A stretch of 64,000 nt of DNA, taken from the NCBI GenBank assembly GCA_015067765.1, contig SVLV01000005.1:1-64000 (forward strand). The letters are read 5' to 3'. The notes under the pieces are model-generated. The model saw only the letters and a list, made by a program, of their open reading frames with translations, was not told the DNA's origin and made no database searches. A program made the position numbers and the translations under genes. This DNA is from Oscillospiraceae bacterium. GTDB taxonomy: Bacteria; Bacillota; Clostridia; Oscillospirales; Oscillospiraceae. Every line of letters starts with the position of its first letter. Within the stretch, counting starts at the first letter, position 1. This document shows, piece by piece, positions 42,762 through 62,023 of this stretch.

Positions 42762-45700
42762 ATGAAGCGCAGCAAACAGTTCCTCAAACGCGGCATTTCC
42801 CTGCTGCTGGTGTTTACGATGGTGTTGTCCATGATGCCTGTCGTACACGTCCACGCAGAAGAGAATGTGCCGACAGCCTCGCTGGTTGATTTGATCGTGA
42901 AGAATTACACGGATCTCAGCGAGGAAGAAAAGGCGGTTTTCAAGGCCGGTGTGCTGAAAGACAAGACGCTTTCGTACCGCGCACCGGTGCAGGAAAACAG
43001 TGATGCTCTTGTGAGCGTGGAGAGCGCCAACAAGAAGGTCACGGCGAAGGTATTCCAGGATGAGAAGGGCAACCTTTGGACTCCTGTGAAGTATACCGTT
43101 ACCGTGGGTGAAGAAGTGAAGGAGACGGTGGCACTGACCAAGAGTGGCAGCGTCTATCTCGGCGTATTCACCGGCACCTATGAGGCATACAACATTGATG
43201 TCACTTATCAGCTGCAGTGGACTGTGGAGCACAGTGCACTGCTGAATGCTGTCTATGAGCTGGTTGATGACTATGCTGCGCTGGCCTCCCTGAAAGAGGA
43301 GGATATCAAGACCCTTCTGGGCGGTCTGGAAATGTCCAGCGCCGAGACGGGCAATATGACGGCCATTGAGCTGATTGAAAAGATGGCAAACGGCGGTTAT
43401 GAGCTGGAGGTCCCCGGCGGTTTCGGTGACTATCTCCCCGGCGTCAACACCACCATCGTCATCTCCGGTCAGCCCACCAAGGACGCCTCCTCCGCTCTGG
43501 TGGACAGCATGGTGGACGGCAAGCTGCCGCTGAGCAGCTATGTCAACCAGACTACGCTGAAGTGGCTGGTGACCGATGACCGCGAGACTCTGTTTGATGC
43601 TATCATCAGCAGCTATGAGAACGTGAAGGCCATGGCCGAGGATCCCAACGGTGTGGCAACCATCGGCCAGCAGATTCAGGACCTGATCGACGCCTGCGAG
43701 GATGCAGACGCAACGGTGATCAGCCAGATCAACGACAAGGTGACGGATCTGAACGATGCCATCGACGATCTGAACACCAAGATCGGTGATCTGAACACCA
43801 AGATCGGCCAGCTGAACGATAAGATCGAGGATCTCAATGATCAGCTGCCCGACGGTGAGCCCGTCATTGACACCATTGATACCATTCAGCCGGTGGCCAA
43901 GGTCACTGTGAACACCAATGGGGATGACGCACAGACGGCATTGACCAAGATCGATACCGCACTGGGCACGGTCGGTACTTCCCTCACCAATCTGGGCACC
44001 CAGCTGACCGGTCTGGGCACGGACCTGTCCACCCTCAACAGCCGCATTGGTGAGGTGATCACTGACATCGATGAGACGGTGGAAGAGGCCAATAAGCAGA
44101 TGGACGAGGCCTTTGACGCCATCAACGATGAGATCGACAAGGTCAATGTGAATCTGGCCGATGAGGACAAGATCTCTCATGTGGACTCCGTGGCCGATGT
44201 CCGCGCTCTGAAGGGCAAGCTGCAGGCACAGGCCAACAAGGTGTATGACGCCATCGAAGAGGTGGCTGCCGATAACGATCAGACCGTCACCATCGAGAAT
44301 GCCGATGATGTGCGGGATCTGAAGACCGATCTGCAGAAGACCTACAATGAGCTGCTGGATACCCTCAATGAGGAGCTGGCCGAGGCAAATGCTACTGTCC
44401 GCCTCTATGTGGGCACGGAGAATTACTTCAACACCAATGTGAAGAATTCCGATGAAGTGGAAACTGAGATCGGCAAGATGGAAGATCTGCTGAAAATCTT
44501 CCCGAATCTGCAGGATGCTCTGACCGCTCTGGAGGATGCCAGAGATGTTCTGGTGGCCATCGAAGATGCCGTTGCTCAGATCGATGAGAATCTGACCAAT
44601 CTGGATCAGCTGGATGCCGCCATTGAAGCCGTGAACACGGCTCTGGTGGGCCCCAACGGAAACGACGGTCTGGAGGCTGCAGAGGATGCACTGGCGGAAG
44701 CCGCCGACTATAAGGCCCAGCTGCAGGACGCACAGCAGCAGCTGAACACGGCCAAGGATCAGCTGACCCCGGCACAGGAAGAGATCGCAAGTGCCGGCGA
44801 TACCATTGATGCTGCCCGGGAAGATATTGCGGCAGCCAAGGATGCTCTGCTGGAACTGCCTGAAAAGGTGGAGTCCATGAAGGAGATGAAGAAGGTCATC
44901 GACAAGCTGCCCAACCTGATGACGAAGTTCTGCGATGCTCTGGCAGGTGCCTATCAGCGCACGAAGAGCGATGCCTGGTATCTGGACAAGAATGCAGACA
45001 TTCTGGCAGATCAGGTGGACTATGCAGTGCTCAATGAGAAGGTCGCCGCCGCTGTGGGTCATGTGACCCACCGCAGCCCCAAGGAGCAGCTGGATGTCAC
45101 CGAGGGCACGGTCCGCAGCAATGTGGGTACCGTGAACGTGACGGTGAAGCTGACGGTTCAGGCAGTGGGGAAGGACAACGTACTTACCGAGCTCACCTGG
45201 ACTCCCGATGAAATGATCTCTGTTACCGAGGGTACCACCAAGGACGTCCTGCTGCAGAAGCTGGCAGCTGCCGGTGTGGAGGCACAGGGCCTTGCTACCT
45301 TCGATGCATATTTCAACATCAATACCACCAACTATACCCGCACGGTTTCTGTTCTGCCTGAGACGGTGACGGAGGATCTGGTCTATGAGATCTTCTTTGT
45401 CCCCAAGAAGATGCAGGTGACGAAGCTGTGGGAGGCTGTGGGCCAGCAGACCTATGATGTGGACTACGGCGAGCTGATGGTGCTGCCCACCCATGAGAAC
45501 AGCGCCAAGGGTTATGTGTACACCGTGACCGTCGGTCAGGAGTCTCAGACCCTGTATCAGGGCACCCAGATCCGCGTGCTGAGCAATATGACCATTGCAC
45601 GGGTGGAAGGCGACGCCATGACGGCCTTCTATCTGGAGGACCTGCTGCCCAAGACCCACACGGTGGATCCCGCTGTGCTGGCACTGCTGAACAGCGGTGC

Positions 45701-48700
45701 CCTGAACAAGAGCCAGCAGGTGCTGCTGCGTGTGCCCGGCGATCTGGCAACGGTGGAGGAGAACACCATCACGGTGCCCGACTATCCCGCCGGCCTGGGT
45801 GATCTGGTCTGGATCGCCACCTCCGCCAAGGCAACGCTGAACGGCGGCGGAACGGAGAATGTGGTGCTGGTGGCCGATAACGGCAGCCACAAGGGCACCA
45901 TCCAGGGCCTGTGGACCAAGGTGGACATCTACTACACCCTGACCTTCGGCCACAGCGATCTGGACGTGACTGCCGGTCAGCTGGAGTCTGCTCTGCTGCT
46001 GCCCCACACTCTGCATACGGAGTATACGATACAGAAGTCCCAGCTGGATCAGCTGGCAGCCTCTGCCGGCGAGCTGAGCATTCTGAATGCCGAGCTGATC
46101 GGTACGCTGAATGTGGCCATGGGTCAGCTGAGCACCGCAGAGGGCAAGGCTGCCGTGGAGACCATCGTTAACCGCATCAACGCCGGTGACGGCACCCTGA
46201 TGCTGGCAAAGATGGCCAACCAGTACAAGAACGGCGGCATGGTCTACTACTATCGCGACAACAACAGCATCCTGTTCCGGCAGGAGATGGAGATCATGTG
46301 CCAGGCCATGAATGACCTGCTGGATGATCCGCAATTCAAGTCCCTGTGGGAATCTCAGGGCGCATCTGCTGCCGGCGGCAAGAGCTATGAGGATCTGTTG
46401 GATATCCGGGATGAGCTCAACGGTGTGACGCTGCAGGCAGTGAATCCCGCCATCAACAATTCTCCGGAAAAGGTGATCGATCCGGATACCAATCAGGAGC
46501 GTGACCCGCTGGTCATTCTGGTGGACGCCCTGGAGGACATCCAGACCACCGTCTCCTCTGTGAACACCAGCTCCCTGGTCTGGACGGAGACCATGAGCCG
46601 TACCGGCGCCAACTACAGCAGCGTGAATGTGACCGTGTCCTACAAGGGTCAGACCATGACCAGCGATGCAGTGACCGTGGTTAAGGGCAGCGCCCTGAGT
46701 CAGGCGGATTACAACACGCTGGCCGGTTACCTGAGCGACATGGAGACGAAGCTGGGCGTGGATAAGAGCCACTACACCGTTTCCGGCGCTCTGCCCGCCG
46801 CAGGCACCGTCATCAGTGCCGATACCGCGGTGCAGGTCAACTGGACGGCCAAGACCTACACGGTGGTGCTGGAGGGTGAAGCGCCCTGGACCATCACCTA
46901 CGAGAACCGTACCATCCAGCTGCCCGCCTGCACCCAGGCCGGTCACCGCTATGACTACACCATCGACAATGAGGTGCTGGGCGCCGGTGCATATACCTTC
47001 GCAGCTGACCGGTTTGACGCTCTGTTTGCCAACGGAACTTACACCATCACCCGCAAGCTGGTGAACATCGCCGATGAGAAGATGTCCGCTCTGGTGGGTG
47101 AGATGAACGGCGCGGCAATCCTGAGTAAGGACGATGCGGGCAACTACTCCATCGTGGTGCCGGTGGATCCTGCCGCTGCAAAGGACGATCTGGTGGACTT
47201 TGTGATGGGCCTGGTGCTGGGCAACCAGTACAGCTACATCGGCATGAAGACCGGTGAGTATTCCGCCTCCCTGCTGGAGGGTGGTTCTCAGATGGTTCCC
47301 GCCATTGATACCTTCTATGCCAGCGGTAAGTACCACCTGCAGACCCTGCTGGACGGCATCGCCAACAGCGGCACCGGTACCGATGTGATCCTGAGCGCCA
47401 TCAACACTGACGGCTCTGTGAATCACATGAACCTGGCCGGCCAGACGGTGCTGGTGGGTGCAGCCGGTGAGACCCTGACCGCTCTGGGCGGCAAGGTGCT
47501 GGAGCTGCAGCTGTACTTCGGCGAGGACGATGAAAACAACGTTCCCGTGAAGCTGTACCTGACTCTCAACGGTGCAGCATCCGAGCTGACCAGCCTGCGC
47601 AACAAGCTGGCAGACCTGAAGGATTACGTACAGGTGGTGTGCGAGGACGGCCGCTTCAAGCTGAATGTGACGCTGCCCGAGCTGGCCTATGAGGCCTACA
47701 TGGCACTGCTGCTGATCAAGGGTGAGGCCGATATCCGCAACTTCGAGCAGGTGAATGCGGTAACCGCATTCGGCTGGATCATGGAGCTGATGGATGGCGT
47801 GCTGGAAGATCCCGATGTGACGCTGGATACCTATATTAATACTGCTGAAAAGCTGGGTCAGACCATCCAGAATGATCTGTCCGGTTATGAAGCTACTTAT
47901 CAGAAGCTGGTTGGTTACTACAACAAGGGCAAGAATGGGATCCATGAGGAGCAGGATGGCTGGTACATCGATCCCGTGGTCAGCATCGATTCCGTGGTGG
48001 ATAACCAGCTGCAGAAGCTGGTGGATCAGGCCGCCGCAGCAATGAATCTGCCGGCAGGTTCCCTGACCATGTCCGAGATGATCGCTGAGTACGGTACCGA
48101 GGGCATCCACTTCACGGCCGCTGCCAAGCTGACCAACCTGAACACGACTTACGATGCGCTGGTGTTTGACCTGCAGAAGGCAGAGCTTAAGAAGCTGGCC
48201 GGTCTGGAGGAGAACCTGGTGGCCAACGCCCCCGCCCTGTCCGGCATGGCGTCTGTGACGCTGCTGCGGGATGTGACGGTCCCGGCAGGGGAGAAGCTGA
48301 CCTTCTCCACCACCACGGTGCTGGATCTGAACGGCTACACCATCACCGGTGACATCGCCGCAACCGATACCCTGATCATCACCGACAGCCGCATCGGCAG
48401 CGAGAATGCCGGACAGGTCACCGGCAGCATCACCGGCAGCAAGGTCATGATCAATGCCGGTTATTATCCCAACTGCGATGTGTCTGCTTACCTGAAGAAC
48501 GGCTTTGCGCAGGATGCGCAGACCGGCATGGTCAGCAGCACCCTCTATACGGTGAGCAAGACCGAGGCCGCTGCCGGCGCCGGTTACGACGATGAGATCG
48601 TCATCACTGTGAACGCCTCCGCAGCAGAGCTGCGTCAGGCCGCCAACAAGCAGAGCCTGGCTCTGACTGCACTGGATGCCGTGCTGGATACGGTCCTGTC

Positions 48701-51700
48701 CTACTACAACAGCGCCAACCTCTATGTGGAGGGCGAGAAGGTCATCGATCTGTCTGTGGAGGATGTGGTGAACCTGATCAGCGGCAGTGATCGGATGGAT
48801 AAGCTCATCAATGAAAGCCTGAGCTTCTTCTCCGCAGCAGATCTGGCAGATCTGGTGAACCGTTTCACCGCCGATCTGACCGATTTTGCCGCCCTGAAGG
48901 ACGCCGTGGATAACGGCACTCCCGTGGCCGGTTACACCTTCTCTGTGGCACCCTGGGATATCCAGGTGCGCCGCGCAGCAGGGGACTATGTGACGGCAGA
49001 CATCGGCGGTATCGCGGCCGAGGCCAAGACCGGCAAGATCAGCATCGTCATCGACGGTGCACAGAAGGATGCCATCTCCACGGTTCTGGGTGCCTTTGCC
49101 GATACCATCGATGTGGATCTGCAGCTGGCGCTGAACGATCTGCAGCTGTCCGGTACCTCCATCCCCGTGACGGGCGAAGTGGACGGCAGCCTGGTGGCTG
49201 ATTTCTCCCACGATCCCAACTATGTGATCATGATGGCAGTGATCCTGGCCAACAGCGCAGACACTGCCCTGAAGAACGAACTGGTGGCCGCCGTGGAGGA
49301 GTACTACGGCTCCAGCAGCCTGGCTGAGATGGAGACGGTGTTTGACACCATCTCTGTGGAGGACCTGTGCACGGCCCTGCGCGGCAACGGGAACTTTGCC
49401 GCCATGGTGGATGCCCTGCCTCTGCAGGCAGCGACCAAGCAGGCCATCAAGTCCGAGATCGACGGCACCGAGAAGGGTTACTACGCTGTGATCGAGGCGG
49501 TGGGCCGCGTGCTGACCCGCCTGGATGTGACGGGCACCGAGGGCGCCCTGAACGGCAAGACCATGGGCGGCGTGAAGAAGACAGAGAAGAAGACCGATGC
49601 GGCAACGCAGGAGCAGATCGATGTCAACTATTACGGCGTCAGCAAGTCCCGGAGCTTTGATAAGTCTGTTGGCCTGCCGGGTGCCTATACCCTGGATACC
49701 GATATTCAGGTGTCCGACCTGTCCCTGAAGCTGTACCTGTTCACCGATGTTGCACGGATCAACGTCTCCTGCAACGGTGTGGTGACGGAGTATGAGGATT
49801 TGGCAACGGCCCTGAAGCATGTGGCAGCAGCCCATCAGAACTGCACCGTGTATGTCAATCTGGCACAGACGGAGCTGAAGGAAGATGTGGAGCTGAACCA
49901 CGATGTGACCATCGTACACGCCAACCGCATCGCTGCCGGCAGCAAGACGATCAAGCTGGCAACCGGTGTGGAGCTGCACACCGACGCAGCCATGCCTCAG
50001 GGCATGTTGGCAGCCAAGGACAGCGAGCAGTACACCATTGGCTGCACGCAGAGCGGCAATACCTATATCTATAAGCCCGTGGAGAACCGCGTCCACGTGA
50101 AGAACCCCAACGGCGATGTGCTCTACAGCGGCGAGGATCTGGCAGAGGCCATCAAGGCCGCTGTGGCCGGCAGTGTTATCACCATCAACGAGGAGATGGA
50201 GCTGCTGGAGGACGTGCTGGTGGAGGAATCCATTACGCTGGAGAACGCCGAGAACATTGACTTCGGCGACAAGAAGCTGATTCTGGACACTGAGGCCGTG
50301 CTGGTCACCGATTATGCCCTGCCTGCCGGCGCGATCGTGCCGGAGGATGCCGATCGCTACACCATCTCCCGTACCTTCGAAAACGGTGTTTATACCTACA
50401 CCGCACTGGAGAACGCCGTCCATGTGAACAAGGGTGAAGACCTGCTGAGCAGCGGCGACGATCTGATGGATGCCTTTGCCGCAGCAACCGACGGCAGCAC
50501 CCTGCAGATCAACAGACCCGTTGCCCTGACCGGAGATGTGACGCTGCATGCCGGCGTGACCATCCAGGGCGCTGCAAAGATCAACTTTGCCACCTTCCGG
50601 ATCCTGCTGGATCCCAACGGCGTGCTGGTTACCGACAGTGCCCTGCCTGTCGGCGCAGTGGTGCCGGTGGATGGTGACAGATACACCGTCACCTGCACGG
50701 AGGCAAACGGCGTGTTCACCTACGCAGTGCTGGAGAACCTGATCCACGTGACCAGAGGCAGCACCCTGCTCTACAGCGGCAGCGACCTGAATGCCGCCTT
50801 TGAGGCAGCCATGGCTACCGACGGCAGCACCATCACGGTGAACCGTGCCGTTACTCTAAGCCAGAAGGTTACCCTGACCGGCGTCACGGTGACCATTGTG
50901 GGTGCCGGCAACATCACCTTCGAGAAGGAGATCGTGCTGGGCATGAACTCCGCCGAGCTGAAGGCAGATGCCGACATCTCCGCCCATGTGGTTTCCGGCC
51001 TGGCAGACAGATATGTTCTGTGTGTCAACAACACCTACTCTCTGGCCAAGTATCCCTATCAGGTGGGCAGCAACTACTTCACCACCCTGCAGGATGCCAT
51101 TGACAGCATCTCCGACAGCGGTGTGATCACCGTGTACGGTGCAGCAGAGCTGAGCGGTCAGATCACCGTCAGCGGCAAGCAGATCTCTGTGGTGGGCGCC
51201 GATGCCCTGAGCGTGGATCTGAACACCCTGCGCATTACCCTCAGCCAGGTGGGCGACAGCTTCCAGCTGGATGCCGTGCCCGCCGGTGTGTCGGCACAGG
51301 AGCTGAAGTCCCACTTTGTCAGCGGTGCAGGTACCTGCTCCACGGTGGAAGTTACCGTCACCTCCGGCGTACAGGCCCTGGTGAAGGAGAAGCACACCAT
51401 GGTGGAGAAGGTGGACGACCAGTATCTGAAGGCCACCGCCACCACGACGGCTGCTGCCCAGTACTGGAAGAGCTGCTCTGTCTGCGGCACCGCCAGCACC
51501 ACGGAGTACTTCTCCCATGGCAGCCCGCTGAACACCGCACCCACCATCACCAAGCCTGTGATCTCCGGCTCCAGCAATCTGCTCTACGGTCACAAGATCG
51601 ACACGGACAACAAGATGCTGTATCTGGATATTCACAAGAACGGCATGACCGTGGAGGAACTGAAGGCTATTTTGGGCGCTGCGATGACCAACGACGCCGA

Positions 51701-52049
51701 TAACAAGCCGACCGTAACGGTGAACCTCACGGCAAACTTCAACAACCAGCTGCTGGTCTGCACCGGTTCCACTGTGGTGCTGACGGCGGAAAACAGCAGC
51801 GGACAGAAAGCCAGCATCACCTATCAGGTGGTCATCATGGGTGATACCAACAGCAACGGCCGTGTGGAATCCAACGACTCGCTGCGTATGAGCCTGCACT
51901 ATGTGAAGAAGCAGGAGCTGACCGGTCTGCAGCTGCTGGCTGCCGACAACAACCAGAATGGCAGAATCGAGTCGAACGATGCGCTGAAGAATGCCATCAA
52001 GTTTACGGGACGTGCCCAGCATGTTTCCGGTCTGAAAAACGATCGTTGA
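42762..52049 (+). CDS. Giant secreted surface protein (3095 aa) with signal peptide, coiled coils, tandem beta-rich repeats and C-terminal dockerin-like module
   Basis: MKRSKQFLKRGISLLLVFTMVLSMMPVVHVHAEE signal peptide; LNDKIEDLNDQL-type coiled coil; terminal GDTNSNGRVESNDSLRMSLHYVKKQELTGLQLLAADNNQNGRIESNDALKNAIKF. Confidence 0.92.
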   Translation: MKRSKQFLKRGISLLLVFTMVLSMMPVVHVHAEENVPTASLVDLIVKNYTDLSEEEKAVFKAGVLKDKTLSYRAPVQENSDALVSVESANKKVTAKVFQDEKGNLWTPVKYTVTVGEEVKETVALTKSGSVYLGVFTGTYEAYNIDVTYQLQWTVEHSALLNAVYELVDDYAALASLKEEDIKTLLGGLEMSSAETGNMTAIELIEKMANGGYELEVPGGFGDYLPGVNTTIVISGQPTKDASSALVDSMVDGKLPLSSYVNQTTLKWLVTDDRETLFDAIISSYENVKAMAEDPNGVATIGQQIQDLIDACEDADATVISQINDKVTDLNDAIDDLNTKIGDLNTKIGQLNDKIEDLNDQLPDGEPVIDTIDTIQPVAKVTVNTNGDDAQTALTKIDTALGTVGTSLTNLGTQLTGLGTDLSTLNSRIGEVITDIDETVEEANKQMDEAFDAINDEIDKVNVNLADEDKISHVDSVADVRALKGKLQAQANKVYDAIEEVAADNDQTVTIENADDVRDLKTDLQKTYNELLDTLNEELAEANATVRLYVGTENYFNTNVKNSDEVETEIGKMEDLLKIFPNLQDALTALEDARDVLVAIEDAVAQIDENLTNLDQLDAAIEAVNTALVGPNGNDGLEAAEDALAEAADYKAQLQDAQQQLNTAKDQLTPAQEEIASAGDTIDAAREDIAAAKDALLELPEKVESMKEMKKVIDKLPNLMTKFCDALAGAYQRTKSDAWYLDKNADILADQVDYAVLNEKVAAAVGHVTHRSPKEQLDVTEGTVRSNVGTVNVTVKLTVQAVGKDNVLTELTWTPDEMISVTEGTTKDVLLQKLAAAGVEAQGLATFDAYFNINTTNYTRTVSVLPETVTEDLVYEIFFVPKKMQVTKLWEAVGQQTYDVDYGELMVLPTHENSAKGYVYTVTVGQESQTLYQGTQIRVLSNMTIARVEGDAMTAFYLEDLLPKTHTVDPAVLALLNSGALNKSQQVLLRVPGDLATVEENTITVPDYPAGLGDLVWIATSAKATLNGGGTENVVLVADNGSHKGTIQGLWTKVDIYYTLTFGHSDLDVTAGQLESALLLPHTLHTEYTIQKSQLDQLAASAGELSILNAELIGTLNVAMGQLSTAEGKAAVETIVNRINAGDGTLMLAKMANQYKNGGMVYYYRDNNSILFRQEMEIMCQAMNDLLDDPQFKSLWESQGASAAGGKSYEDLLDIRDELNGVTLQAVNPAINNSPEKVIDPDTNQERDPLVILVDALEDIQTTVSSVNTSSLVWTETMSRTGANYSSVNVTVSYKGQTMTSDAVTVVKGSALSQADYNTLAGYLSDMETKLGVDKSHYTVSGALPAAGTVISADTAVQVNWTAKTYTVVLEGEAPWTITYENRTIQLPACTQAGHRYDYTIDNEVLGAGAYTFAADRFDALFANGTYTITRKLVNIADEKMSALVGEMNGAAILSKDDAGNYSIVVPVDPAAAKDDLVDFVMGLVLGNQYSYIGMKTGEYSASLLEGGSQMVPAIDTFYASGKYHLQTLLDGIANSGTGTDVILSAINTDGSVNHMNLAGQTVLVGAAGETLTALGGKVLELQLYFGEDDENNVPVKLYLTLNGAASELTSLRNKLADLKDYVQVVCEDGRFKLNVTLPELAYEAYMALLLIKGEADIRNFEQVNAVTAFGWIMELMDGVLEDPDVTLDTYINTAEKLGQTIQNDLSGYEATYQKLVGYYNKGKNGIHEEQDGWYIDPVVSIDSVVDNQLQKLVDQAAAAMNLPAGSLTMSEMIAEYGTEGIHFTAAAKLTNLNTTYDALVFDLQKAELKKLAGLEENLVANAPALSGMASVTLLRDVTVPAGEKLTFSTTTVLDLNGYTITGDIAATDTLIITDSRIGSENAGQVTGSITGSKVMINAGYYPNCDVSAYLKNGFAQDAQTGMVSSTLYTVSKTEAAAGAGYDDEIVITVNASAAELRQAANKQSLALTALDAVLDTVLSYYNSANLYVEGEKVIDLSVEDVVNLISGSDRMDKLINESLSFFSAADLADLVNRFTADLTDFAALKDAVDNGTPVAGYTFSVAPWDIQVRRAAGDYVTADIGGIAAEAKTGKISIVIDGAQKDAISTVLGAFADTIDVDLQLALNDLQLSGTSIPVTGEVDGSLVADFSHDPNYVIMMAVILANSADTALKNELVAAVEEYYGSSSLAEMETVFDTISVEDLCTALRGNGNFAAMVDALPLQAATKQAIKSEIDGTEKGYYAVIEAVGRVLTRLDVTGTEGALNGKTMGGVKKTEKKTDAATQEQIDVNYYGVSKSRSFDKSVGLPGAYTLDTDIQVSDLSLKLYLFTDVARINVSCNGVVTEYEDLATALKHVAAAHQNCTVYVNLAQTELKEDVELNHDVTIVHANRIAAGSKTIKLATGVELHTDAAMPQGMLAAKDSEQYTIGCTQSGNTYIYKPVENRVHVKNPNGDVLYSGEDLAEAIKAAVAGSVITINEEMELLEDVLVEESITLENAENIDFGDKKLILDTEAVLVTDYALPAGAIVPEDADRYTISRTFENGVYTYTALENAVHVNKGEDLLSSGDDLMDAFAAATDGSTLQINRPVALTGDVTLHAGVTIQGAAKINFATFRILLDPNGVLVTDSALPVGAVVPVDGDRYTVTCTEANGVFTYAVLENLIHVTRGSTLLYSGSDLNAAFEAAMATDGSTITVNRAVTLSQKVTLTGVTVTIVGAGNITFEKEIVLGMNSAELKADADISAHVVSGLADRYVLCVNNTYSLAKYPYQVGSNYFTTLQDAIDSISDSGVITVYGAAELSGQITVSGKQISVVGADALSVDLNTLRITLSQVGDSFQLDAVPAGVSAQELKSHFVSGAGTCSTVEVTVTSGVQALVKEKHTMVEKVDDQYLKATATTTAAAQYWKSCSVCGTASTTEYFSHGSPLNTAPTITKPVISGSSNLLYGHKIDTDNKMLYLDIHKNGMTVEELKAILGAAMTNDADNKPTVTVNLTANFNNQLLVCTGSTVVLTAENSSGQKASITYQVVIMGDTNSNGRVESNDSLRMSLHYVKKQELTGLQLLAADNNQNGRIESNDALKNAIKFTGRAQHVSGLKNDR
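50089..51150 (+). repeat. Divergent tandem protein repeats (about 100 aa) in the giant protein
   Basis: Repeated pattern [VI]HVxx(G)xxLLxSGxDLxxAFxAAxxGSTIxxNxxxxLxxDVTLxxxVTIxxAxxIxF...VLVTDxALPxGAxVPxDxDRYTxxxxxxNGVxTYxxLEN. Confidence 0.8.
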
Positions 52050-52062
52050 AGGGGATTGAGTC

Positions 52063-53148
52063 ATGAAAAAGTTTTCTAAATTGATTGCGGTGCTTGTGGC
52101 ACTGCTTATGACCCTGGTGCTGATCCCTTCTGCCTATGCGGCAGAAGGGGCTCCGGGGAGCACAGTGACCGTGCGTCTGTCTCTGGGTACCGTGTCCTCT
52201 GTGGACGGCACCGTGTCCCTGAGCAACCCCGGCCTGTTCAGCAGCGTGAGCTATAAGGTGGAGGCCGGCTCCCTGACCAACGGCTCCTCCGGCAATACCA
52301 TCTTCTGCTACGGCGGCGGTGAGACGGCTGGTGTTACCGTGGTGGTGACGGGTACCATCAGCCCCAATGCTGCCGATGGCGCCTCCTGCAAGATCACGGC
52401 CAGCTACTCCTACAGTGATGCCGACTACAACTACATTGAAGGCAAGAGCAAGAGCGGCACGGTGACCGTGAAGGTTCCTGCAGCGCCTCCCGGTGGCGGC
52501 GGTGGTGGTGGAACTACTCCCACGCCCCCTCCCACTCCCTCCGGCCCCTCCGAGCCTGTTGTGCAGATCGATTATTCCGAGCTGAACAAGCAGATCGATG
52601 CCGCCAATAAGCTCTCTGCCGAGGGGTATACCGATGCCTCCTGGGCCGCCCTGAAGGATGCCCTGAACAAGGCAACCTCCATGCGCAGCAGCAAGAGCCA
52701 GGCTGACGTGGATCAGGCCGCCAAGGATCTGGCAGCCGCCATTGCCGCACTGGCCAAGGTGGATTACACCGCTCTGAAGCAGGCCATCGAGAAGACCGAG
52801 ACCCTGCTGACCAACGAGAAGATCGGCGGCCAGCTGAAGGATCTGCTGACTGCTCTGGAGAGCAGCAAGGGTCTGCTGACTTCCGGCGACCAGGGTGCAG
52901 TGGATGCTGCAGCCAAGTCTCTGGAGGATCTGCTGCTGGCCCTGCAGCAGGAACTGGATGCCATGAAGATCCCTGAGGACGGCTTCTGCAACATCACCAT
53001 CCATCAGGTATGGCCCATCCTGTTCTTCATCAGCCTGGCAGTGAACGTTGCCTTTGTTGCACTGGCAGCCGTTTACGTGGTGCGCCGCAAGAAGAACCAG
53101 AAGGACGATACCCCTCTGGTGGACTACGACATCGGTGACGATCAGTAA
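52063..53148 (+). CDS. Membrane-anchored surface protein with cohesin-like N-terminal domain, FIVAR-like helical repeats and C-terminal TM
   Basis: Signal peptide; AAEGAPGSTVTVRLSLGTVSS...GTVTVKVPAAPP beta domain; poly-Gly/Pro linker; LNKQIDAANKLSAEGYTDASWAALKDALNKA; TM VWPILFFISLAVNVAFVALAAVYVVRRKK. Confidence 0.75.
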   Translation: MKKFSKLIAVLVALLMTLVLIPSAYAAEGAPGSTVTVRLSLGTVSSVDGTVSLSNPGLFSSVSYKVEAGSLTNGSSGNTIFCYGGGETAGVTVVVTGTISPNAADGASCKITASYSYSDADYNYIEGKSKSGTVTVKVPAAPPGGGGGGGTTPTPPPTPSGPSEPVVQIDYSELNKQIDAANKLSAEGYTDASWAALKDALNKATSMRSSKSQADVDQAAKDLAAAIAALAKVDYTALKQAIEKTETLLTNEKIGGQLKDLLTALESSKGLLTSGDQGAVDAAAKSLEDLLLALQQELDAMKIPEDGFCNITIHQVWPILFFISLAVNVAFVALAAVYVVRRKKNQKDDTPLVDYDIGDDQ

Positions 53149-53215: not shown

Positions 53216-54709
53216 GTGCTTTTTAAGAAACATGCAAAATGGGGTGTTTTTTTGAAGGAAAACAACTGGAAGAGAATGGAATATGAGACCTGGGACGAGG
53301 CCTTCCGCGGTCAGGTGGCGGCAGTGCGCCAGCAGTCTGTCCGTGTGGCCGCCTATACACAGGCGCTGTTTCTGCAGGCCTGTGCCGATTCCTTCGGCAA
53401 AAACACCCCCGGCGGCAGCGATCAGATCCGCAGCCAGTACGGCGATCTGGCCTACAAGTGCGGACTGTATCATCAGCTGGGCAAGGCACTGGTCCCGCCG
53501 GAATATCAGATCTGGCAGAAGGACTATACGGAGGAAGAGGTGGCGGTGTACCAAAAGTACACCACGGACGGCCGCGCGCTGGTGGCGTCCCTGCAGGAGC
53601 GGGGGCAGCGTGCCAAAGAGAAGCGCAAGGGCGCCGTGGAGGAGCTGCCCACCCAGAACATCCCCTGGCTGATGATCCGGGAGAGCTGCGAGCAGCACAT
53701 GGAGCGCTGGAACGGGTCGGGATACCCCCACGGGCGACAGGGCAGACAGATCAGCCCCATCGCCCAGATCGTGGGTCTGGCCAAGGAACTGGACCGGCTG
53801 GCCTCCGAGACCAAGCGGGAGGATCCCTTTGAGGATGCCTGCCGCACCCTGCAGGAACAGGAGAATACCCTGTGGTCTCCGGAGCTGATCGCTGTGCTGA
53901 AAAATGCCCGCAGCAAGTGCCGCGCCGTGTACAACAAGTACATCCACTACACCATGACCGTGCCCAAGACGATCCCGCTGGTGAAGAAGACAAAGGATCG
54001 GCCCATGGGTCTGAGCTACCGGCCCATGGTGTCGGACATGACGGGGACGGTGGTTGCCTACGAGGCGGAGCCCTGGTACGGCGGCATCGCCAACAACCCC
54101 GGTGAGCGGGAGGGAACGGCGGAGATCCACGATATGCTGGTGCGCACCGGCATGATCGCGGACATGGCCTTCTACTTCCTGTATGAGGCGGCGGATGCGC
54201 TGGTACGCATCGAAAACTGCAGGCTGAACCTGCGGGGCGTGCTGGTGAATATGCTGCCCGGATTTTACACCCTGCCCACGCAGCTGCAGCGGTTTGAGCA
54301 GCTGTTTGAGGATCAGGGCATCGATCGCAGCAAGCTGTGGATCACGGTGCCGGAGGAGAGCTTCCGCAAGGCCACCAAGGGTCAGAAGGAACTGATGGCC
54401 CGGTATCTGCGCAACGGTGTCGTGCTGGTGCTGGATGGGGTACATCCGGAGGGCATGGACTGGGAGGAGGTCAAGGCTCTGGGTCTGCGCCATGTGCGCC
54501 TGGCACCGGAGACGGGTCTGAACCCCGATACCGCGCAGTTGATGAAGCAGCTGACGGCGGATGGCTTTGTGCTGCTGGGCGGCGGCGCCGATACCCACGA
54601 TCTGCTGGGCTGGCAGCTGGCCTGCGGCGTGAGCTGCAGCAGCGGTACGGTGACCGGTCTGCCGGTCAGCGAGGAGGAAATGATCCGGGACCGCCTGCTG
54701 GCTGAGTGA
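53216..54709 (+). CDS. Degenerate HD-GYP-like plus EAL-like regulatory protein
   Basis: YHQLGKALVP (HD to HQ), HMERWNGSGYPHGRQGRQISPIAQIVGLAKELDRL (GYP retained), VAYEAEPWYGG EAL-like region and C-terminal LGWQLACGVSCSSGTVTGLPVSEEEM. Confidence 0.6.
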   Translation: MLFKKHAKWGVFLKENNWKRMEYETWDEAFRGQVAAVRQQSVRVAAYTQALFLQACADSFGKNTPGGSDQIRSQYGDLAYKCGLYHQLGKALVPPEYQIWQKDYTEEEVAVYQKYTTDGRALVASLQERGQRAKEKRKGAVEELPTQNIPWLMIRESCEQHMERWNGSGYPHGRQGRQISPIAQIVGLAKELDRLASETKREDPFEDACRTLQEQENTLWSPELIAVLKNARSKCRAVYNKYIHYTMTVPKTIPLVKKTKDRPMGLSYRPMVSDMTGTVVAYEAEPWYGGIANNPGEREGTAEIHDMLVRTGMIADMAFYFLYEAADALVRIENCRLNLRGVLVNMLPGFYTLPTQLQRFEQLFEDQGIDRSKLWITVPEESFRKATKGQKELMARYLRNGVVLVLDGVHPEGMDWEEVKALGLRHVRLAPETGLNPDTAQLMKQLTADGFVLLGGGADTHDLLGWQLACGVSCSSGTVTGLPVSEEEMIRDRLLAE

Positions 54710-55818
54710 TGGCCATGAAAAAGAAACAGACGCCTCCTGTGGAGGCACAAGGAACAACCCTCCCCCAGGGACACACCCCCCAGCGGCGGCTGCTGAAAAA
54801 GCGCCGCGCAGGTGTGGTGCTCTCCCGGGAAGAGGTCAGGACCATACAGCTGGGGCGCAAAAAGCTGCGCCGGGAGCTGCGGAAGAAGGGCATCAAAAAA
54901 CGCAAGGATTTTGAGCTGACCGCTTCCAGTCTGGGCCTGTATTTTGACAAGAACCGTCTGGGTGCGCTGCTGCTGTGGCTGCTCCACGGACGGGGACTTT
55001 GGGCATTGCTGGGTGCAGCCGGCCTGCTGCTGACGGTACTGTTTGCCTTCTCCCTGATCTCACAGATGCAGGGACATTTCACCATCAACCTGACAGGAGA
55101 TCTGCTGAAGGAGGGCTTTGTGCTCAGCGAAACGGCGGATTTCAAAGAGGGCTCCATGCGTCTGTTTGCAGAACCTGCCACAGACGTGCCCTGCTTTTCC
55201 CTGGCGGACCTGCACGAAGATGTGAACGATGTGGACGGCCAGCACAACGAGGCCGGCTACTTTGCCTACACCTTCTACATCCGCAATGAGGGCGAAAACA
55301 CGGTGGATTACGACTGGGAGCTGGTCATCAACTCCGAGAGCAGAAATCTCACCGATGCCACATGGGTCATGTTCTTCGAGGACAACCGGATGAACATGTA
55401 TGCCAAGGCCCGGACGGACGGAAGTCAGGAGGCGCTGCCCGGTTTCGGCGACAACAGCCGGGGCTATCTGCGCGTGCCGCTGGCGGACCGTGCTGCATCG
55501 GAGGACCTGTACCGGGTGGTTGCCACCCGGGGCGGCGTGAACTATTACCGCGTGGTCCCCACCTCCTTTGAGAGCGATGACATAGTGACCTCCGGCACCC
55601 AACTGCAGGTGGCCCCTATGGAGACCCACAAGTACACGATCGTCATCTGGCTGGAGGGCGATGATCCCGACTGCACCGACGAACTGATCGGTGGCCATGC
55701 CGGTGTGGAGATGCGTTTCCACATGGCAGAGGAAGAGGAAACAGATGACCCGGCAGACAGCGGTGTGCTGACCCACTGGGATGCCTTTTGGGACAACCTG
55801 CTGTTCTGGAAAGATTAA
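54709..55818 (+). CDS. Membrane-anchored TasA-like/SipW-associated surface protein with long basic cytoplasmic N-terminus
   Basis: Single TM (LWALLGAAGLLLTVLFAFSLI) then beta-rich ectodomain; WLEGDDPDCTDELIGG motif shared with the 58471-59463 product. Confidence 0.55.
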   Translation: MAMKKKQTPPVEAQGTTLPQGHTPQRRLLKKRRAGVVLSREEVRTIQLGRKKLRRELRKKGIKKRKDFELTASSLGLYFDKNRLGALLLWLLHGRGLWALLGAAGLLLTVLFAFSLISQMQGHFTINLTGDLLKEGFVLSETADFKEGSMRLFAEPATDVPCFSLADLHEDVNDVDGQHNEAGYFAYTFYIRNEGENTVDYDWELVINSESRNLTDATWVMFFEDNRMNMYAKARTDGSQEALPGFGDNSRGYLRVPLADRAASEDLYRVVATRGGVNYYRVVPTSFESDDIVTSGTQLQVAPMETHKYTIVIWLEGDDPDCTDELIGGHAGVEMRFHMAEEEETDDPADSGVLTHWDAFWDNLLFWKD

Positions 55819-55940: not shown

Positions 55941-58265
55941 ATGAATTATACGCAAAAGCGGCAGATGAGCATTCGCAACAAGCTGTTTGGTGCCATCTCC
56001 ATGCTGCTGGTTGCCAGTATCATGATGGTTTCCACCACCTATGCGTGGTTCACCCTGTCCACGGCTCCGGAAGTGCAGGGCATCACCACCACGGTGGGCT
56101 CCAACGGCAATCTGGAGATCGCCCTGTCCCCCACGGACGGTGATTCCGACAGCATCACCAGCGCCATGGGTGATTCTGACAAGAGCTGGGCGATCAAGAA
56201 CCTGACCTGGGGTAACCTGCTGAATCTGAGCGATACCAGCTACGGCCTGGGCGGGATCAGTCTGCTGCCTGCACAGCTGAGCATCTCCGACTCCGGTCTG
56301 ACCACCGCCCCGCTGAAGACCCCCACCTACGGTGCCGACGGTCGTATCAGCCAGCTGGAGGCCAACACCGCCTATGGTAAGTACACCAACCAGGGCTACG
56401 AGGTGGACAGCGCATTCCGCGGCGTCCGCGCCATTGGTACCTCCTCCACCATGACGGAGTACCAGATCACCTTCAACAACTATCTGGCCAAGATGGGTAC
56501 CGACGCCGCCGCTGCCAGAAGCCTGGCGGAGTCCTCCCTGCGCAACAACGGTTCGAAGCTGGCCGATATGGCGGTGTCCCACGCAACGGTTTCCGGCACG
56601 GATGGCAACAACTACAAAGAGTATGTTACCGCTATGGAAAATGTTGTCACCACCATGCTGGAGGCCAATGCCAAGCTGAAGGACTCCATCTATGCCGGTG
56701 CCGTGGCCGCTGTGGCCAGTAACTTCTCCGGCAACGATCACGCTATGTATACTGTCGCCATGAACATGGTGAACAACAACGCCACCCTGGAGGAATTGAT
56801 GGTGGCCGCCCAGAAGGCCAACTGGGTGGATGAGGCCGATCACAGCAAGGGCATTGAGGTGCCTACTGCGGACATTGGCAACAACCCCCTGGGCATGGCC
56901 TACAATGCCTGGAAGCTGATCAATACCAATCTGTCCGAGGCCAACACCGCTATCGCCACCCTGAAGCAGGATGACGATGTCAGATGGGATGAGGCATCCA
57001 CCGTGCTGACCAAGATGATGAACACCGAGGGCGTCAAGGTCAACAACAAGAACCTGACGGAACTGAAGGAACTGGCCTCCTGGTATCTGGCAGATAGAAT
57101 TAACCCGGGTGAGGAGAATTATCAGAAGCAGCAGGACGCCATCACCTTCGTGAACTCCATGCTGCGCAACATCGAGGTGCAGCTGGATGCACGGTCCGGC
57201 GTCTACGGTGACATGGCCTCCATGGTGGGCAACCTGAGCGCCACCATCGGCCTGAACGTGAGCTATGCAGGTGTTACGCTGAAGGATGCTCCCGCCACCA
57301 TCAAGACCACCAATGCCAGCCCCAGCGATTCCGGTACCATGGGCCGCGCCCGCACCACTCTGGCCAATCTGGGCGCCCTGCAGACCAACGACAGCACCTC
57401 TACCGGTATGCTGAACGAGACCTACGGCTACATGGTGGACTTCTACTTCCGCACCAACGCCAACGGCTCCAAGCTGCAGCTGCAGAGCGATGCCGCCCAG
57501 CGTGTCTATGAGAGCAGCCAGAGCCAGGCGACTCAGGGCTCCGGCAGCACCATGACCTTCACCACCGGCACCATCAGTGTGCAGGCCGTGGAGAACCTGA
57601 TGGACTGCATCCGCGTGGTCTTTGTGGATCCCACCAACAATGCCGTGTTCGGCATTGCCAAGCTGGATGCCACCACCATCGCCCACGCTGGCAACAGCGA
57701 CGGCACCACCGCCGTGACGGCCAAGCTGAAGCTGTATGACTACACCATCAATGCCGACGGCAGCCTGACCCTGTCCGCACCCAAGACCAGCGCGGCTCTG
57801 TGCGACATGCCCACCAATACCGCCAAGGCAGTTTCTGCTCTGGTGTATCTGGATGGCGATCAGGTGACCAACGCCGATGTGGCCAATGCCGCCACCGCTA
57901 TGACCGGTACCATGAACCTGCAGTTCTCCAGCTCTGCCGAGCTGGTGCCCATGGAGAATGCGGCACTGGAGAACATGGCGGATAACTCCGGCAGCGGCTC
58001 CGGCAACAACCAGCAGCCCGCTCTGACCGCCACCACCGTGACGCTGCAGGGCGAAGCCTCCACCGTTACCGTGACCGGTTACAAGACGGCGGAGAGCCAG
58101 AGTGCTGAGCCGCAGACGGTGACCCTGGATGGCACCAATCCCCAGACGGTGACGGTGTATACCGGAACCAGTGTGGATTACACCGTGACCGTGGGTGATG
58201 GCTTTGCGGTAACGCAGGATCCCACCCATACCTGGACGGTTGCCACGGCACCCGCAAACCCCTAA
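55941..58265 (+). CDS. Major TasA/SipW-type exported matrix protein candidate (774 aa)
   Basis: N-terminal IRNKLFGAISMLLVASIMMVSTTYAWFTLSTAPEVQGI (SipW-type signal anchor with TYAWF motif). Confidence 0.65.
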   Translation: MNYTQKRQMSIRNKLFGAISMLLVASIMMVSTTYAWFTLSTAPEVQGITTTVGSNGNLEIALSPTDGDSDSITSAMGDSDKSWAIKNLTWGNLLNLSDTSYGLGGISLLPAQLSISDSGLTTAPLKTPTYGADGRISQLEANTAYGKYTNQGYEVDSAFRGVRAIGTSSTMTEYQITFNNYLAKMGTDAAAARSLAESSLRNNGSKLADMAVSHATVSGTDGNNYKEYVTAMENVVTTMLEANAKLKDSIYAGAVAAVASNFSGNDHAMYTVAMNMVNNNATLEELMVAAQKANWVDEADHSKGIEVPTADIGNNPLGMAYNAWKLINTNLSEANTAIATLKQDDDVRWDEASTVLTKMMNTEGVKVNNKNLTELKELASWYLADRINPGEENYQKQQDAITFVNSMLRNIEVQLDARSGVYGDMASMVGNLSATIGLNVSYAGVTLKDAPATIKTTNASPSDSGTMGRARTTLANLGALQTNDSTSTGMLNETYGYMVDFYFRTNANGSKLQLQSDAAQRVYESSQSQATQGSGSTMTFTTGTISVQAVENLMDCIRVVFVDPTNNAVFGIAKLDATTIAHAGNSDGTTAVTAKLKLYDYTINADGSLTLSAPKTSAALCDMPTNTAKAVSALVYLDGDQVTNADVANAATAMTGTMNLQFSSSAELVPMENAALENMADNSGSGSGNNQQPALTATTVTLQGEASTVTVTGYKTAESQSAEPQTVTLDGTNPQTVTVYTGTSVDYTVTVGDGFAVTQDPTHTWTVATAPANP

Positions 58266-58470: not shown

Positions 58471-59463
58471 TTGCAGACAAAGGAAAGGCGCAGCAATGGA
58501 AGAGCGCTGCGCGTGGTGAGTTATCTGTATGTGATTTTGATTCTGCTCATATTGTCTGTGGTGGCCACCTATACCTGGTTTGCAATGAGCCGGGCCCCGA
58601 AGGTCAGTGACCTGGGACTCTATGTCAATGCCCCCACCGGTCTGGAGCTTTCGCAGGACCCGCAGGCAGAGGAGTGGGTACTGCAGTTGGATTTCCCCGC
58701 CCTGGTGGGCGAAACCGCACCGCTGCGGCCGGTGACCTGGTCCCAGCAGAACGGACAGTTTTTTGCAGCAACTTACGGGCATGACGGGCGGCGCACCAAT
58801 GTGTGGGAGCCGCTGACCGATGAGCGCCATGCCAATCAGAATAACGCCGACGGATACTATGTCGTTGGCACCTTTTACGCCCGCAGTCAACAGGTGACGA
58901 CGGTGCACCTCTCCCCGGCGGTGGAGGTGGACGATGGACTGCAGGGCGCCGGAACCTATGTGATCGGCACCCCGGTATGGGATGACGAGCGGGTGCTCCA
59001 CAGCGATGGAGGCAACGGAGCACAGCAGGCCATCCGCATCGGCCTGCGGGTGCAGAAGACCGATCTGCAGGGCAATGCCGCCGGAGACAGTACCTTTTAT
59101 ATCTACGAACCCAATGCCGACACCCATGTGGACGGCACCACCGGATACATCGCCACCCCCAATATGGATGATGGGGCGGGTCTGGTGGATGAGGCGCATC
59201 TGATCACCCAGACCACCAGTCAGTGGGAAGAGGTGTCCCCCGTGGAACGGAATGTGGTGATGCGCACGCTGGGGGAATTTACCAGCGAAACAGAGCTTTT
59301 TTCCATCGGTCCGGAGGAGCTGGTGCAGATCCGCCTCTATGTCTGGCTGGAAGGCCAGGATGTGGACTGCAGCAATGCCATCGGACAGGCCGCACAGGTG
59401 GTGGCCAGCATCCAGTTTGGTACGGCGGATGATACGCAGTCCGGACTGGTTCCCATTGGTTAA
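58471..59463 (+). CDS. TasA/SipW-type exported protein
   Basis: VVSYLYVILILLILSVVATYTWFAMSRAPKVSDLGLYV; C-terminal VWLEGQDVDCSNAIGQAAQVVASIQF. Confidence 0.65.
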   Translation: MQTKERRSNGRALRVVSYLYVILILLILSVVATYTWFAMSRAPKVSDLGLYVNAPTGLELSQDPQAEEWVLQLDFPALVGETAPLRPVTWSQQNGQFFAATYGHDGRRTNVWEPLTDERHANQNNADGYYVVGTFYARSQQVTTVHLSPAVEVDDGLQGAGTYVIGTPVWDDERVLHSDGGNGAQQAIRIGLRVQKTDLQGNAAGDSTFYIYEPNADTHVDGTTGYIATPNMDDGAGLVDEAHLITQTTSQWEEVSPVERNVVMRTLGEFTSETELFSIGPEELVQIRLYVWLEGQDVDCSNAIGQAAQVVASIQFGTADDTQSGLVPIG

Positions 59464-59514: not shown

Positions 59515-60354
59515 ATGAAGAAGAAGTTGAAGGAACCCTCTGCCGCAAAGGACGTGCAGACCCAGCAGGTCAATGAGAACGGGGAAGTGGTGAAGGAGCA
59601 GAGCAAGAAACAGAAGATCATCGGCATGCTGATCAACGTGTTGCTGGTGGTGGCCATTGCGTTGGCCGCTGTTTCCACCTATGTCTCCTATGTGTCCACC
59701 TCCGGAAACGGTGTGCCCAGCATTCTGGGCATTCGGATCTTCTCCATTCAGACCAAATCCATGTATCCCACCCTGCTGCCCGGCGACCTGATCTTCGATG
59801 TGGCAGTCAATGACCCCGGCGAGCTGAAGAAGGGGGATATCATCACCTACTGGACCGTGATCAACGGGGAGCGGGTGCTGAATACCCATACCATCCATGA
59901 GATCTACGATGGCGGTGATTACCGGATCTTCAGCACCAAGGGTGACAACAACACCGCCGCCGACCCCCTGACCGTCCATGAGGCGGAGGTGGTGGGCAAG
60001 TATGTGGCCCGGGTGGGCGGTCTGGGCAAGGTGTTTGACTACCTGCAGACCAGCACCGGCTTTTTGATCGTGGTGGTGATCCCGGTATTTCTGTTCTTCC
60101 TGTTCTATCTGATCCAGTTCTTCCGGGTGCTGTTTGAGTATCAGAATGTGAAGAACCTGATCAAGTATGAGCAGGAGCGGGGCCGCACGGAGGATCTGAT
60201 CGCCGAGGAGGCCCGCAGACAGCAGGAGACCAAGGACAGAGAACGGGCGGCGCTGGAGGCAGAGCTGCGGGAGAAACTGCGCGCCGAGCTGATGGCCGAT
60301 ATGGGCATTGCCAAGCCTGAACCGGAGGAGAAAAAAGAGACGCCGGAGCAGTAA
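59515..60354 (+). CDS. SipW-like (ER-type) signal peptidase I
   Basis: IFSIQTKSMYPTLLPGDLIF, KKGDIITYW, FSTKGDNNTAADPLTV; N- and C-terminal TMs. Confidence 0.85.
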   Translation: MKKKLKEPSAAKDVQTQQVNENGEVVKEQSKKQKIIGMLINVLLVVAIALAAVSTYVSYVSTSGNGVPSILGIRIFSIQTKSMYPTLLPGDLIFDVAVNDPGELKKGDIITYWTVINGERVLNTHTIHEIYDGGDYRIFSTKGDNNTAADPLTVHEAEVVGKYVARVGGLGKVFDYLQTSTGFLIVVVIPVFLFFLFYLIQFFRVLFEYQNVKNLIKYEQERGRTEDLIAEEARRQQETKDRERAALEAELREKLRAELMADMGIAKPEPEEKKETPEQ

Positions 60355-60412: not shown

Positions 60413-62023
60413 ATGGACAACTTTTTTCGATATTTTTATCAGGATATTGGCCGGGTGTTCCGTGCATTTCTGGAGATTTTCGGCGCATTTTTCGACTTTT
60501 TGAATTATCTGCTGAACTTCCCCATGCGCATGGAGATCATCGAGAGCTACGAGGGGGAATTCTCCATAGGAGAGTGGATCGCCCTGTTTGTGGCCAATCT
60601 GGCGCTGATCGTTGCGGCGGTGGCGCTGTTTGTGGTGCTGGGCAGGCTGCTGCGCAAGGTGTTCCGCCGCTATGTGCCCGCCAAGAAGTATGACGAGGTG
60701 GTGCGGCAGGTCCGCACCCTGCAGCGGGATCTGATCCGGGCCAACTACGAGAAGGACAAGCTGCTGGCCATGCGTGTGGCGGAACTGGGCGGCAGCGCCG
60801 AGGGTCTGAGCACCGATGACCTGCTGAAGGGTCTGAAGGACGAGGAGGAGTCTGTGCCGGAGCAGGAGGAGAAGAAGGAGGAGGAGTTTGTGGCGGATAT
60901 GACCCGCAACAACATCCATTCCCCCTGTGTGGATCCCCAGGAGAGCCGTTTCTTCCGTCTGACCTCGGTGGACAACTTCTACAAGACCACCTATGTGGTG
61001 CCCGCCTATGACGACGAGATCACCCTGGAGGAGTTCTGCATCCGGTTCCGCAAGTACGCAGCCTCCCAGCTGCAGCTGTACTACGATCTGGACATGATGC
61101 GGTATTTCATCGCCTCGCTGGGTACGGCCCGCATCATCATTCTGCAGGGTATTTCCGGTACCGGTAAGACCTCGCTGCCCTACGCCTTCGGTAAGTTTGT
61201 CAACAACCCCACCTCCGTGGTATCGGTGCAGCCGGCCTGGCGTGAGCGCACGGAGCTCTACGGTTATTTCAACGAGTTTTCCAAGAAGTATTCGGAGACG
61301 GACTTCCTGCGTGCCGTCTATGAGGCCAACTACTACCGGGATCCCCACATGGTGATCCTGGATGAGATGAACATCGCCCGCGTGGAGTACTACTTTGCCG
61401 AGATGCTCTCCATTCTGGAGATGCCCCGGCAGGAGGAGCGGGTGATGGATATTGTGTCCGCCACCTGGGAGAACGACCCCTGCCTGATCCACAACGGCAA
61501 GGTGCAGATCAGCGACAACGTGTGGTTTGTGGGCACCATCAACAACGACGACTCCACCTTCGCCGTGGCCGATAAGGTGTACGACCGTGCCATCCCCATC
61601 GACCTGGACAGCCGCGCCGATCCCTTCGCCTGTGAACCCACCGATCCGGTCTATGTGTCCACCGACCATCTGGTGAAGCTGTTTGACGAGGCCAAGGAGC
61701 AGTATCCCATCAGCCAGAGCTCCATGGATAAGCTGGAGGAACTGAACGCATATCTGATCAAGAATTTCCGTCTGGCCTTCGGTAACCGTATCATGAAGCA
61801 GATCCACGACTATGTGCCCTGCTTTGTGGGCTGCGGCGGTACGGAGCAGCAGGCCATCGACTTCATCGTGGCCAAGAAGGTGCTGCGTAAGTTTGAATCC
61901 CTGAACCTGGGCTTTATGAAGGATGAGCTGACCAAGTTCAACAATTATCTGGACAAGCTGTTCGGCAAGAATGCCATGAAGATCTGCAAGGACTACGTGG
62001 AGCTGCTGAAGAGAAACAACTAA
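60413..62023 (+). CDS. Membrane-anchored McrB-like AAA+ ATPase
   Basis: N-terminal TM; Walker A LQGISGTGKTSLPYAFG; Walker B MVILDEMNIARVEYYFAEML; sensor VWFVGTINNDDSTF...VYDRAIPIDL. Confidence 0.82.
   Translation: MDNFFRYFYQDIGRVFRAFLEIFGAFFDFLNYLLNFPMRMEIIESYEGEFSIGEWIALFVANLALIVAAVALFVVLGRLLRKVFRRYVPAKKYDEVVRQVRTLQRDLIRANYEKDKLLAMRVAELGGSAEGLSTDDLLKGLKDEEESVPEQEEKKEEEFVADMTRNNIHSPCVDPQESRFFRLTSVDNFYKTTYVVPAYDDEITLEEFCIRFRKYAASQLQLYYDLDMMRYFIASLGTARIIILQGISGTGKTSLPYAFGKFVNNPTSVVSVQPAWRERTELYGYFNEFSKKYSETDFLRAVYEANYYRDPHMVILDEMNIARVEYYFAEMLSILEMPRQEERVMDIVSATWENDPCLIHNGKVQISDNVWFVGTINNDDSTFAVADKVYDRAIPIDLDSRADPFACEPTDPVYVSTDHLVKLFDEAKEQYPISQSSMDKLEELNAYLIKNFRLAFGNRIMKQIHDYVPCFVGCGGTEQQAIDFIVAKKVLRKFESLNLGFMKDELTKFNNYLDKLFGKNAMKICKDYVELLKRNN

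Follow-up and report, generated by a model that had tools for sequence, protein, structure and literature searches.

A giant surface protein of an Oscillospiraceae bacterium and its predicted dockerin-cohesin tether to the membrane

A giant secreted protein and its probable membrane-bound partner

The window analysed here, a stretch of 64,000 nucleotides from an Oscillospiraceae bacterium (assembly GCA_015067765.1, contig SVLV01000005.1, positions 1 to 64,000), encodes a giant secreted protein with a C-terminal type I dockerin, and the next gene encodes a membrane-anchored protein with a cohesin-fold domain. The two products probably form a non-cellulosomal, one-to-one dockerin-cohesin membrane tether for the giant surface protein, as judged from sequence and structural models. 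By computation, the analysis showed the family of the dockerin, the fold of the cohesin, signals of membrane topology, the order of the genes and their conservation, the way in which the two partners co-vary, and the loss of catalytic residues in a neighbouring protein. The giant gene and all genes of its block discussed below lie on the + strand.

The giant protein (42762-52049, 3095 amino acids) is composed of a signal peptide, helical or coiled regions, a long beta-rich body and the C-terminal dockerin (51840-51986). Its C-terminus reads ...GDTNSNGRVESNDSLRMSLHYVKKQELTGLQLLAADNNQNGRIESNDALKNAIKFTGRAQHVSGLKNDR, in which no LPXTG signal was found, and contains two EF-hand-type loops, DTNSNGRVESND and DNNQNGRIESND, both of which display the D/N ligands at positions 1, 3, 5 and 12 and the duplicated recognition residues of type I dockerin F-hand loops. 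Pfam Dockerin_1 (PF00404) matched the tail alone with 30.2 bits (E 5e-7, cut-off 22.9) and the full 3095 residues with 22.0 bits, slightly below the cut-off, and a whole-genome profile scan in which the dockerin exceeded the cut-off placed it at 51840-51986. As well, phmmer matches of the dockerin included chains of solved dockerins. The recognition pair is S-N in each of the two loops. Among 17 proteins, the recognition positions 10-11 agreed between loops of the same protein in 28 of 34 cases, against 13.7 expected from shuffling (p 5e-5), and the other loop positions gave p 0.014 in the same within-protein test; the agreement at positions 10-11 is what dual-face type I dockerins, with their symmetrical loops, should show. 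In the body of about 3000 residues, no informative Pfam family was detected, and Pfam revealed no carbohydrate-active enzyme (CAZyme) domain in the giant.

The membrane-anchored cohesin protein (52063-53148, 361 amino acids), which was delineated by profile and homologue searches, starts with a signal peptide, followed by a beta domain and a Pro/Gly linker; after these come FIVAR-type helices, a C-terminal transmembrane helix, an RRKK stretch and a short cytoplasmic tail. Its gene is separated from the giant gene by a 13-bp gap (52050-52062), and its ribosome-binding site, AAGGGG, sits right at the stop codon of the giant, which suggests that the two genes are translationally coupled. A simple promoter and terminator scan found no promoter signal above chance. 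The FIVAR-type repeat (52570-52752) scored 25.0 bits with PF07554, slightly below the cut-off of 29.2, and is also indicated by a phmmer match to 7jrm; orthologues reached 59-81 bits. The transmembrane helix (53011-53082), recognised from the sequence and the alignment, is preceded by a conserved CNI..H..WP, and the conserved cytoplasmic tail DDTPLVDYDIGDDQ occupies 53104-53145, as seen in the alignment and in a pattern search of relatives.

The beta domain (52135-52482, residues 25-140) begins where the signal peptide ends. AlphaFold2, run on residues 25-140 with 25 homologues in the alignment, gave a model of nine strands with a predicted local distance difference test score (pLDDT) of 96 and a predicted TM-score (pTM) of 0.86. 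When this model was compared with the PDB by Foldseek, ranks 1-6 were all cohesins (TMq 0.64-0.68), of which 5nrm_A was the best match (E 8.3e-6, TMq 0.68). Most of these six structures come from complexes with dockerins, among them 5nrm and 3ul4, and the non-cellulosomal Archaeoglobus fulgidus cohesin 2xdh was matched lower in the ranking. On the strength of the model, the domain belongs to the cohesins by fold, not by sequence profile.

The first-pass annotation had described the end of the giant as a dockerin-like module with two EF-hand-type loops and no LPXTG-type signal, and the next gene as encoding a signal peptide, a cohesin-like beta domain, a Pro/Gly linker, FIVAR-like helices and a transmembrane segment. 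These descriptions agree with the results above, with FIVAR remaining below its cut-off. The adjacency of the two genes was likewise correct; the distance, which had been given as 14 bp, is 13 bases after the stop codon. That annotation had named an N-terminal domain without a cohesin or jelly-roll fold as grounds against its reading, and the nine-stranded model with its cohesin matches withstood this fold part of the check. Its reading of the pair as a non-cellulosomal surface docking system is thus supported by the tests made here, the adhesin role of the giant being presumed.

Conservation and co-variation of the pair

Conservation was assessed with 21 true homologues of the 361-residue protein, from metagenome-assembled genomes mostly labelled Oscillospiraceae or Clostridia; a 22nd match, in Olsenella (L062), was set aside owing to its other architecture. 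The tail consensus DDTPLVDYDIxDDE is near-invariant in the homologues, in part by selection, because the tail itself was among the search patterns used to collect this set. A protein search free of the tail-pattern bias yielded five homologue genomes carrying the tail, and tail variants are present in L048 and L053.

A dockerin-ended giant was found in 18 of the 21 homologue clusters, either immediately upstream or with one more cohesin gene in between, a count in which the giant of L055 lies on the same contig and the dockerin of L043 at a contig edge. Three clusters (L058, L060 and L061) have no adjacent dockerin-ended giant. The tail gene of L058 carries an SH3_3 domain (41.6 bits) in place of the cohesin, and a dockerin-ended giant homologue (dockerin 27.7 bits) is located about 30 kb away. 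That giant (L119 3065-10530, G176) again has a gene for a small beta-domain/transmembrane protein immediately 3' of its own, with a sortase gene next, which speaks for the linkage; the Cohesin profile found no match in the small beta domain, whose identity is proposed from its sequence pattern.

The distances between dockerins and those between cohesins were correlated after removal of the distance of a neighbouring operon gene, that of the HD-GYP/EAL protein described below (partial r 0.455, p 0.002), and the correlation also held for single-cohesin loci only (r 0.54, p 0.004); a control gene whose L051 sequence contains a stop was left out. Because the pair is conserved, the dockerin loops are symmetrical and the two partners co-vary, the dockerin and the cohesin are supported as a dedicated pair.

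A second pair and the question of a cellulosome

The genome (1.54 Mb, 79% complete) contains two dockerins and one Pfam-detectable cohesin, and the system would therefore be non-cellulosomal, as the first-pass annotation had proposed. Neither a multi-cohesin scaffoldin nor several dockerin-bearing CAZymes were found in this genome, in which each anchor has one cohesin, and a cellulosome was rejected on these dockerin and cohesin counts.

The second dockerin lies on contig C12, in a dockerin-cohesin gene pair at L004 5576-9765 (G000), and belongs to a 799-residue protein whose C-terminal domain is of the VgrG3 type and which also has a ricin lectin. Its gene is directly 5' of its own cohesin gene, whose product has a cohesin of 33.8 bits, two cadherin-like domains, a transmembrane helix and a long acidic cytoplasmic tail ending in MSLDDLLKDIRDM. 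The same arrangement recurs in G003 (L121), with the similar tail ending MSLDELLRDIKNM. The loops of this second dockerin carry V-T/I-T, as against S-N/S-N in the dockerin of the giant, a difference that probably makes the pairs orthogonal to each other.

A rival reading would place the pair in a small enzyme complex resembling a cellulosome, where several dockerin enzymes are recruited by the membrane cohesin and the giant is just one of its clients. Such a complex would find some encouragement in the second dockerin protein with its VgrG3-type and ricin lectin domains and in the 8-12 dockerins of some related genomes, but we consider it quite improbable, given that only two dockerins are encoded in this genome, the second of which has an adjoining cohesin and different recognition pairs, that every membrane protein bears one cohesin and that the giant lacks a CAZyme domain.

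A probable HD-GYP/EAL pseudo-enzyme with a possible link to the cytoplasmic tail

The gene following the cohesin gene (53216-54709; listed as an open reading frame of 497 amino acids, with the true start probably at about 53252) encodes a soluble protein with HD-GYP and EAL domains. HD_5 (PF13487) matched it with 50.9 bits and EAL (PF00563) with 30.7 bits, slightly below the cut-off, and orthologues reached up to 55.3 bits with EAL. It is directly 3' of the tail gene in 20 of the 21 clusters, and in L055 it occurs in the same cluster. Among 248 relative genomes, the TPLVDYDI tail pattern was present in eight and the HD-GYP/EAL gene in nine, with all eight tail genomes having both, and only one of the 240 relatives without the tail pattern possessed the HD-GYP/EAL gene. 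The nominal hypergeometric p is about 3e-14, a value that ignores kinship, five of the tail genomes being of one genus.

The HD-GYP/EAL protein was compared with the canonical motifs of both domains. The HD motif is changed to HQ (with the D-to-Q exchange invariant), HHE is changed to HME and DDFG is lost in all 20 HD-GYP/EAL sequences, and EALxR is changed to EAxPW in nearly all of them. The HD and HHE metal ligands and the EAL and DDFG motifs of an active cyclic di-GMP (c-di-GMP) phosphodiesterase are thus not retained, and the protein is best read, from its residues, as a pseudo-enzyme. Moreover, no GGDEF match was found in six of the nine genomes with the cassette, three of them at least 94% complete, which makes sensing of c-di-GMP by this protein unlikely.

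A Lap-like switch was considered as well, in which the HD-GYP/EAL protein senses c-di-GMP and controls retention of the giant adhesin from the inside out, in the manner of LapD and LapA. What makes it attractive is that a giant surface protein, a membrane partner and a degenerate EAL domain share one operon, in analogy to LapD (PMC3032553). The conversion of ExLxR to EAxPW, the loss of the HD metal centre and the lack of a GGDEF match in six of the nine cassette genomes speak against it, as does the fact that no LapG-type periplasmic protease was seen among the nine operon genes. Lap-like c-di-GMP sensing was rejected for the altered residues together with the GGDEF result in these genomes, and the switch as a whole appears very unlikely.

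Other genes of the operon

The dockerin-cohesin pair belongs, as judged from gene order, to a conserved block of nine genes, and the term "self-contained", which the first-pass annotation had applied to the pair, is too narrow. The conserved cytoplasmic tail and the remaining operon had been overlooked there.

Downstream of the HD-GYP/EAL gene, the next gene in nearly all clusters (54706-55818) encodes a membrane protein with a basic cytoplasmic N-terminus, a transmembrane helix and an extracellular beta domain ending in WLEGDDPDCTDELIGGH. It is followed by genes for two predicted secreted beta proteins, one of 774 amino acids with a TYAWF-type leader (55941-58265) and one of 330 amino acids with a TYTWF-type leader (58471-59463), both conserved across clusters. 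A SipW-like signal peptidase I (59515-60354) was identified by TIGR02228 (81 bits, cut-off 51.85); it reached 85 bits with NF046067 SipW, under the Bacillus-specific cut-off of 190 of that model. The block continues with an AAA ATPase of the AAA_5/McrB-like kind (60413-62023; PF07728, 20.3 bits, sub-threshold), which is apparently membrane-linked and whose gene, with 65-90% identity across clusters, is conserved more strongly than any other in the block, and with a coiled-coil protein (62046-63902) that is also conserved across clusters. The order of the block is kept downstream, and the peptidase and the ATPase are present in 16 of the 17 clusters with contigs of sufficient length.

The SipW-linked secreted proteins had no Pfam match. 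TasA was tried as an identity for the 330-residue protein and rejected: its AlphaFold2 model had a pLDDT of 82, the best Foldseek E was 0.06, and no TasA was in the top 50 matches listed. Since no significant Foldseek match was obtained, the proteins with TYxWF leaders are here called SipW-linked, not TasA. The SipW-linked block, which holds several secreted proteins with TYxWF leaders, extends past the window end (L101, G000:C56:60000-75619): on the contig, a second signal-peptidase-like gene is located at about 65.2-66.0 kb, and a 1765-residue protein with a leader of this class is also encoded there. Directly 5' of the giant gene is a tyrosine recombinase gene (41324-42178; PF00589, 90 bits).

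Proposed mechanism and its weighing

According to the proposed mechanism, the giant would be secreted and then kept non-covalently at the cell surface, where its C-terminal type I dockerin is predicted to plug into the cohesin-fold domain of the next gene's product. We infer that this binding would take place and would depend on Ca2+. The cohesin protein would be fixed in the membrane by its C-terminal helix, and the FIVAR helices might act as a spacer that carries the cohesin through the wall and away from the membrane. On the inner side, the cytoplasmic tail may dock on the catalytically dead HD-GYP and EAL protein, which is the best candidate by co-occurrence. The surface tether would thereby be tied to an intracellular factor for the assembly or placement of a fibre- or matrix-like surface layer with a presumed adhesive or matrix role, which may be secreted via the SipW-like peptidase of the operon.

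Several observations weigh against this mechanism. Pfam Cohesin (PF00963) scored the beta domain at 14.3 bits against a cut-off of 24.1 (E 0.049), and the domain has 116 residues, compared with about 140 in classical cohesins. L060 and L061 retain the beta-domain protein without an adjoining dockerin giant, and some clusters possess two cohesin proteins, so that the stoichiometry varies. In G057 (L098 2153-8987), the HD-GYP/EAL gene adjoins a gene for an SLH-domain protein, with no tail or dockerin gene, and the transmembrane and TYxWF-leader genes come after it. Furthermore, the contact between the tail and the HD-GYP/EAL protein is suggested by their co-occurrence, and we propose it tentatively, as somewhat doubtful.

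The weak profile score might also mean that the dockerin has no relation to the beta domain, which would then be a jelly-roll of a generic kind or bind carbohydrates, and that the dockerin docks on another scaffold or forms only a Ca2+-stabilised end cap. Pfam Cohesin matched only two of 26 family members of the domain at E<=1, and unrelated beta sandwiches of the CNA/pilin type appear among Foldseek ranks >=7, with weaker scores. Yet cohesins take all the top places among the structural matches, and the conserved adjacency, the co-variation with the dockerin and the symmetry of the dockerin loops also speak against a generic domain, which we therefore judge improbable. The finding of cohesin, SH3 or SLH modules in the anchor slot fits a connector role. 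Taken further, the system may be a new tethering machine, in which a dockerin-cohesin plug is continuous, via the TPLVDYDI tail, with a dead HD-GYP and EAL adaptor, a modular anchor slot takes cohesin, SH3 or SLH forms, a SipW-dependent surface layer is served, and the hosts are mostly without c-di-GMP synthesis; this wider proposal is possible, and we hold it with reserve.

Relation to known systems and implications

Cellulosomal type I pairs, such as those with the Acetivibrio cellulolyticus ScaB cohesin (5nrm) and with the Clostridium thermocellum OlpA cohesin and Doc918 (3ul4), share the symmetrical two-loop dockerin and the nine-stranded cohesin, and OlpA likewise places a cohesin at the cell surface. 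Unlike these, the system described here has one cohesin per protein, a transmembrane anchor in place of SLH or sortase attachment, with a cytoplasmic tail that is conserved, a giant client without a recognised enzyme domain and a dedicated operon, and no cellulosome. Pairwise use outside cellulosomes is also seen in Archaeoglobus fulgidus (cohesin 2xdh) and in the glycoside hydrolases of Clostridium perfringens, but those pairs connect enzymes, or proteins whose role is unknown, whereas here a giant and a dedicated membrane cohesin are kept together over 18 clusters. The Limousia mucinolysome (PMC12997984) is similar in being a cohesin-dockerin system of gut Firmicutes with a surface-anchoring cohesin protein, and differs in being an enzyme scaffold with tandem cohesins and the sortase-anchored cSca5.

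By organisation, the nearest described clostridial relative is the C. perfringens sipW-bsa operon (PMC7395162). In sipW-bsaABCRSD as well as in tapA-sipW-tasA of Bacillus subtilis (PMC7395162), a SipW-type peptidase is encoded beside secreted beta-protein genes. In contrast, the secreted proteins found here have no Pfam match, the 330-residue one tested has no TasA fold, and the operon additionally encodes the dockerin giant, the cohesin anchor, the HD-GYP/EAL pseudo-enzyme and the AAA ATPase. LapA-LapD (PMC3032553) also unites a giant surface protein with a degenerate EAL protein, whereas in the present system retention would be by cohesin and dockerin, and the HD-GYP/EAL protein is soluble and without a c-di-GMP-binding motif, with GGDEF mostly undetected.

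No description of this operon or arrangement was found in the literature searched, most subscription papers being outside its coverage. The kind of interaction is known, and the arrangement of a membrane cohesin with a tail, a giant client, a pseudo-enzyme and a SipW operon is apparently undescribed. To our knowledge, nearly all cohesin-dockerin pairs described so far belong to enzyme complexes. In uncultured gut bacteria of the Oscillospiraceae type, the same plug-and-socket seems to keep a giant surface protein attached to the membrane, which gives a testable role for the orphan dockerins and cohesins of non-cellulolytic genomes. It also provides a clear case in which HD-GYP and EAL domains appear to be retained in the form of a pseudo-enzyme by bacteria without detectable c-di-GMP synthesis.

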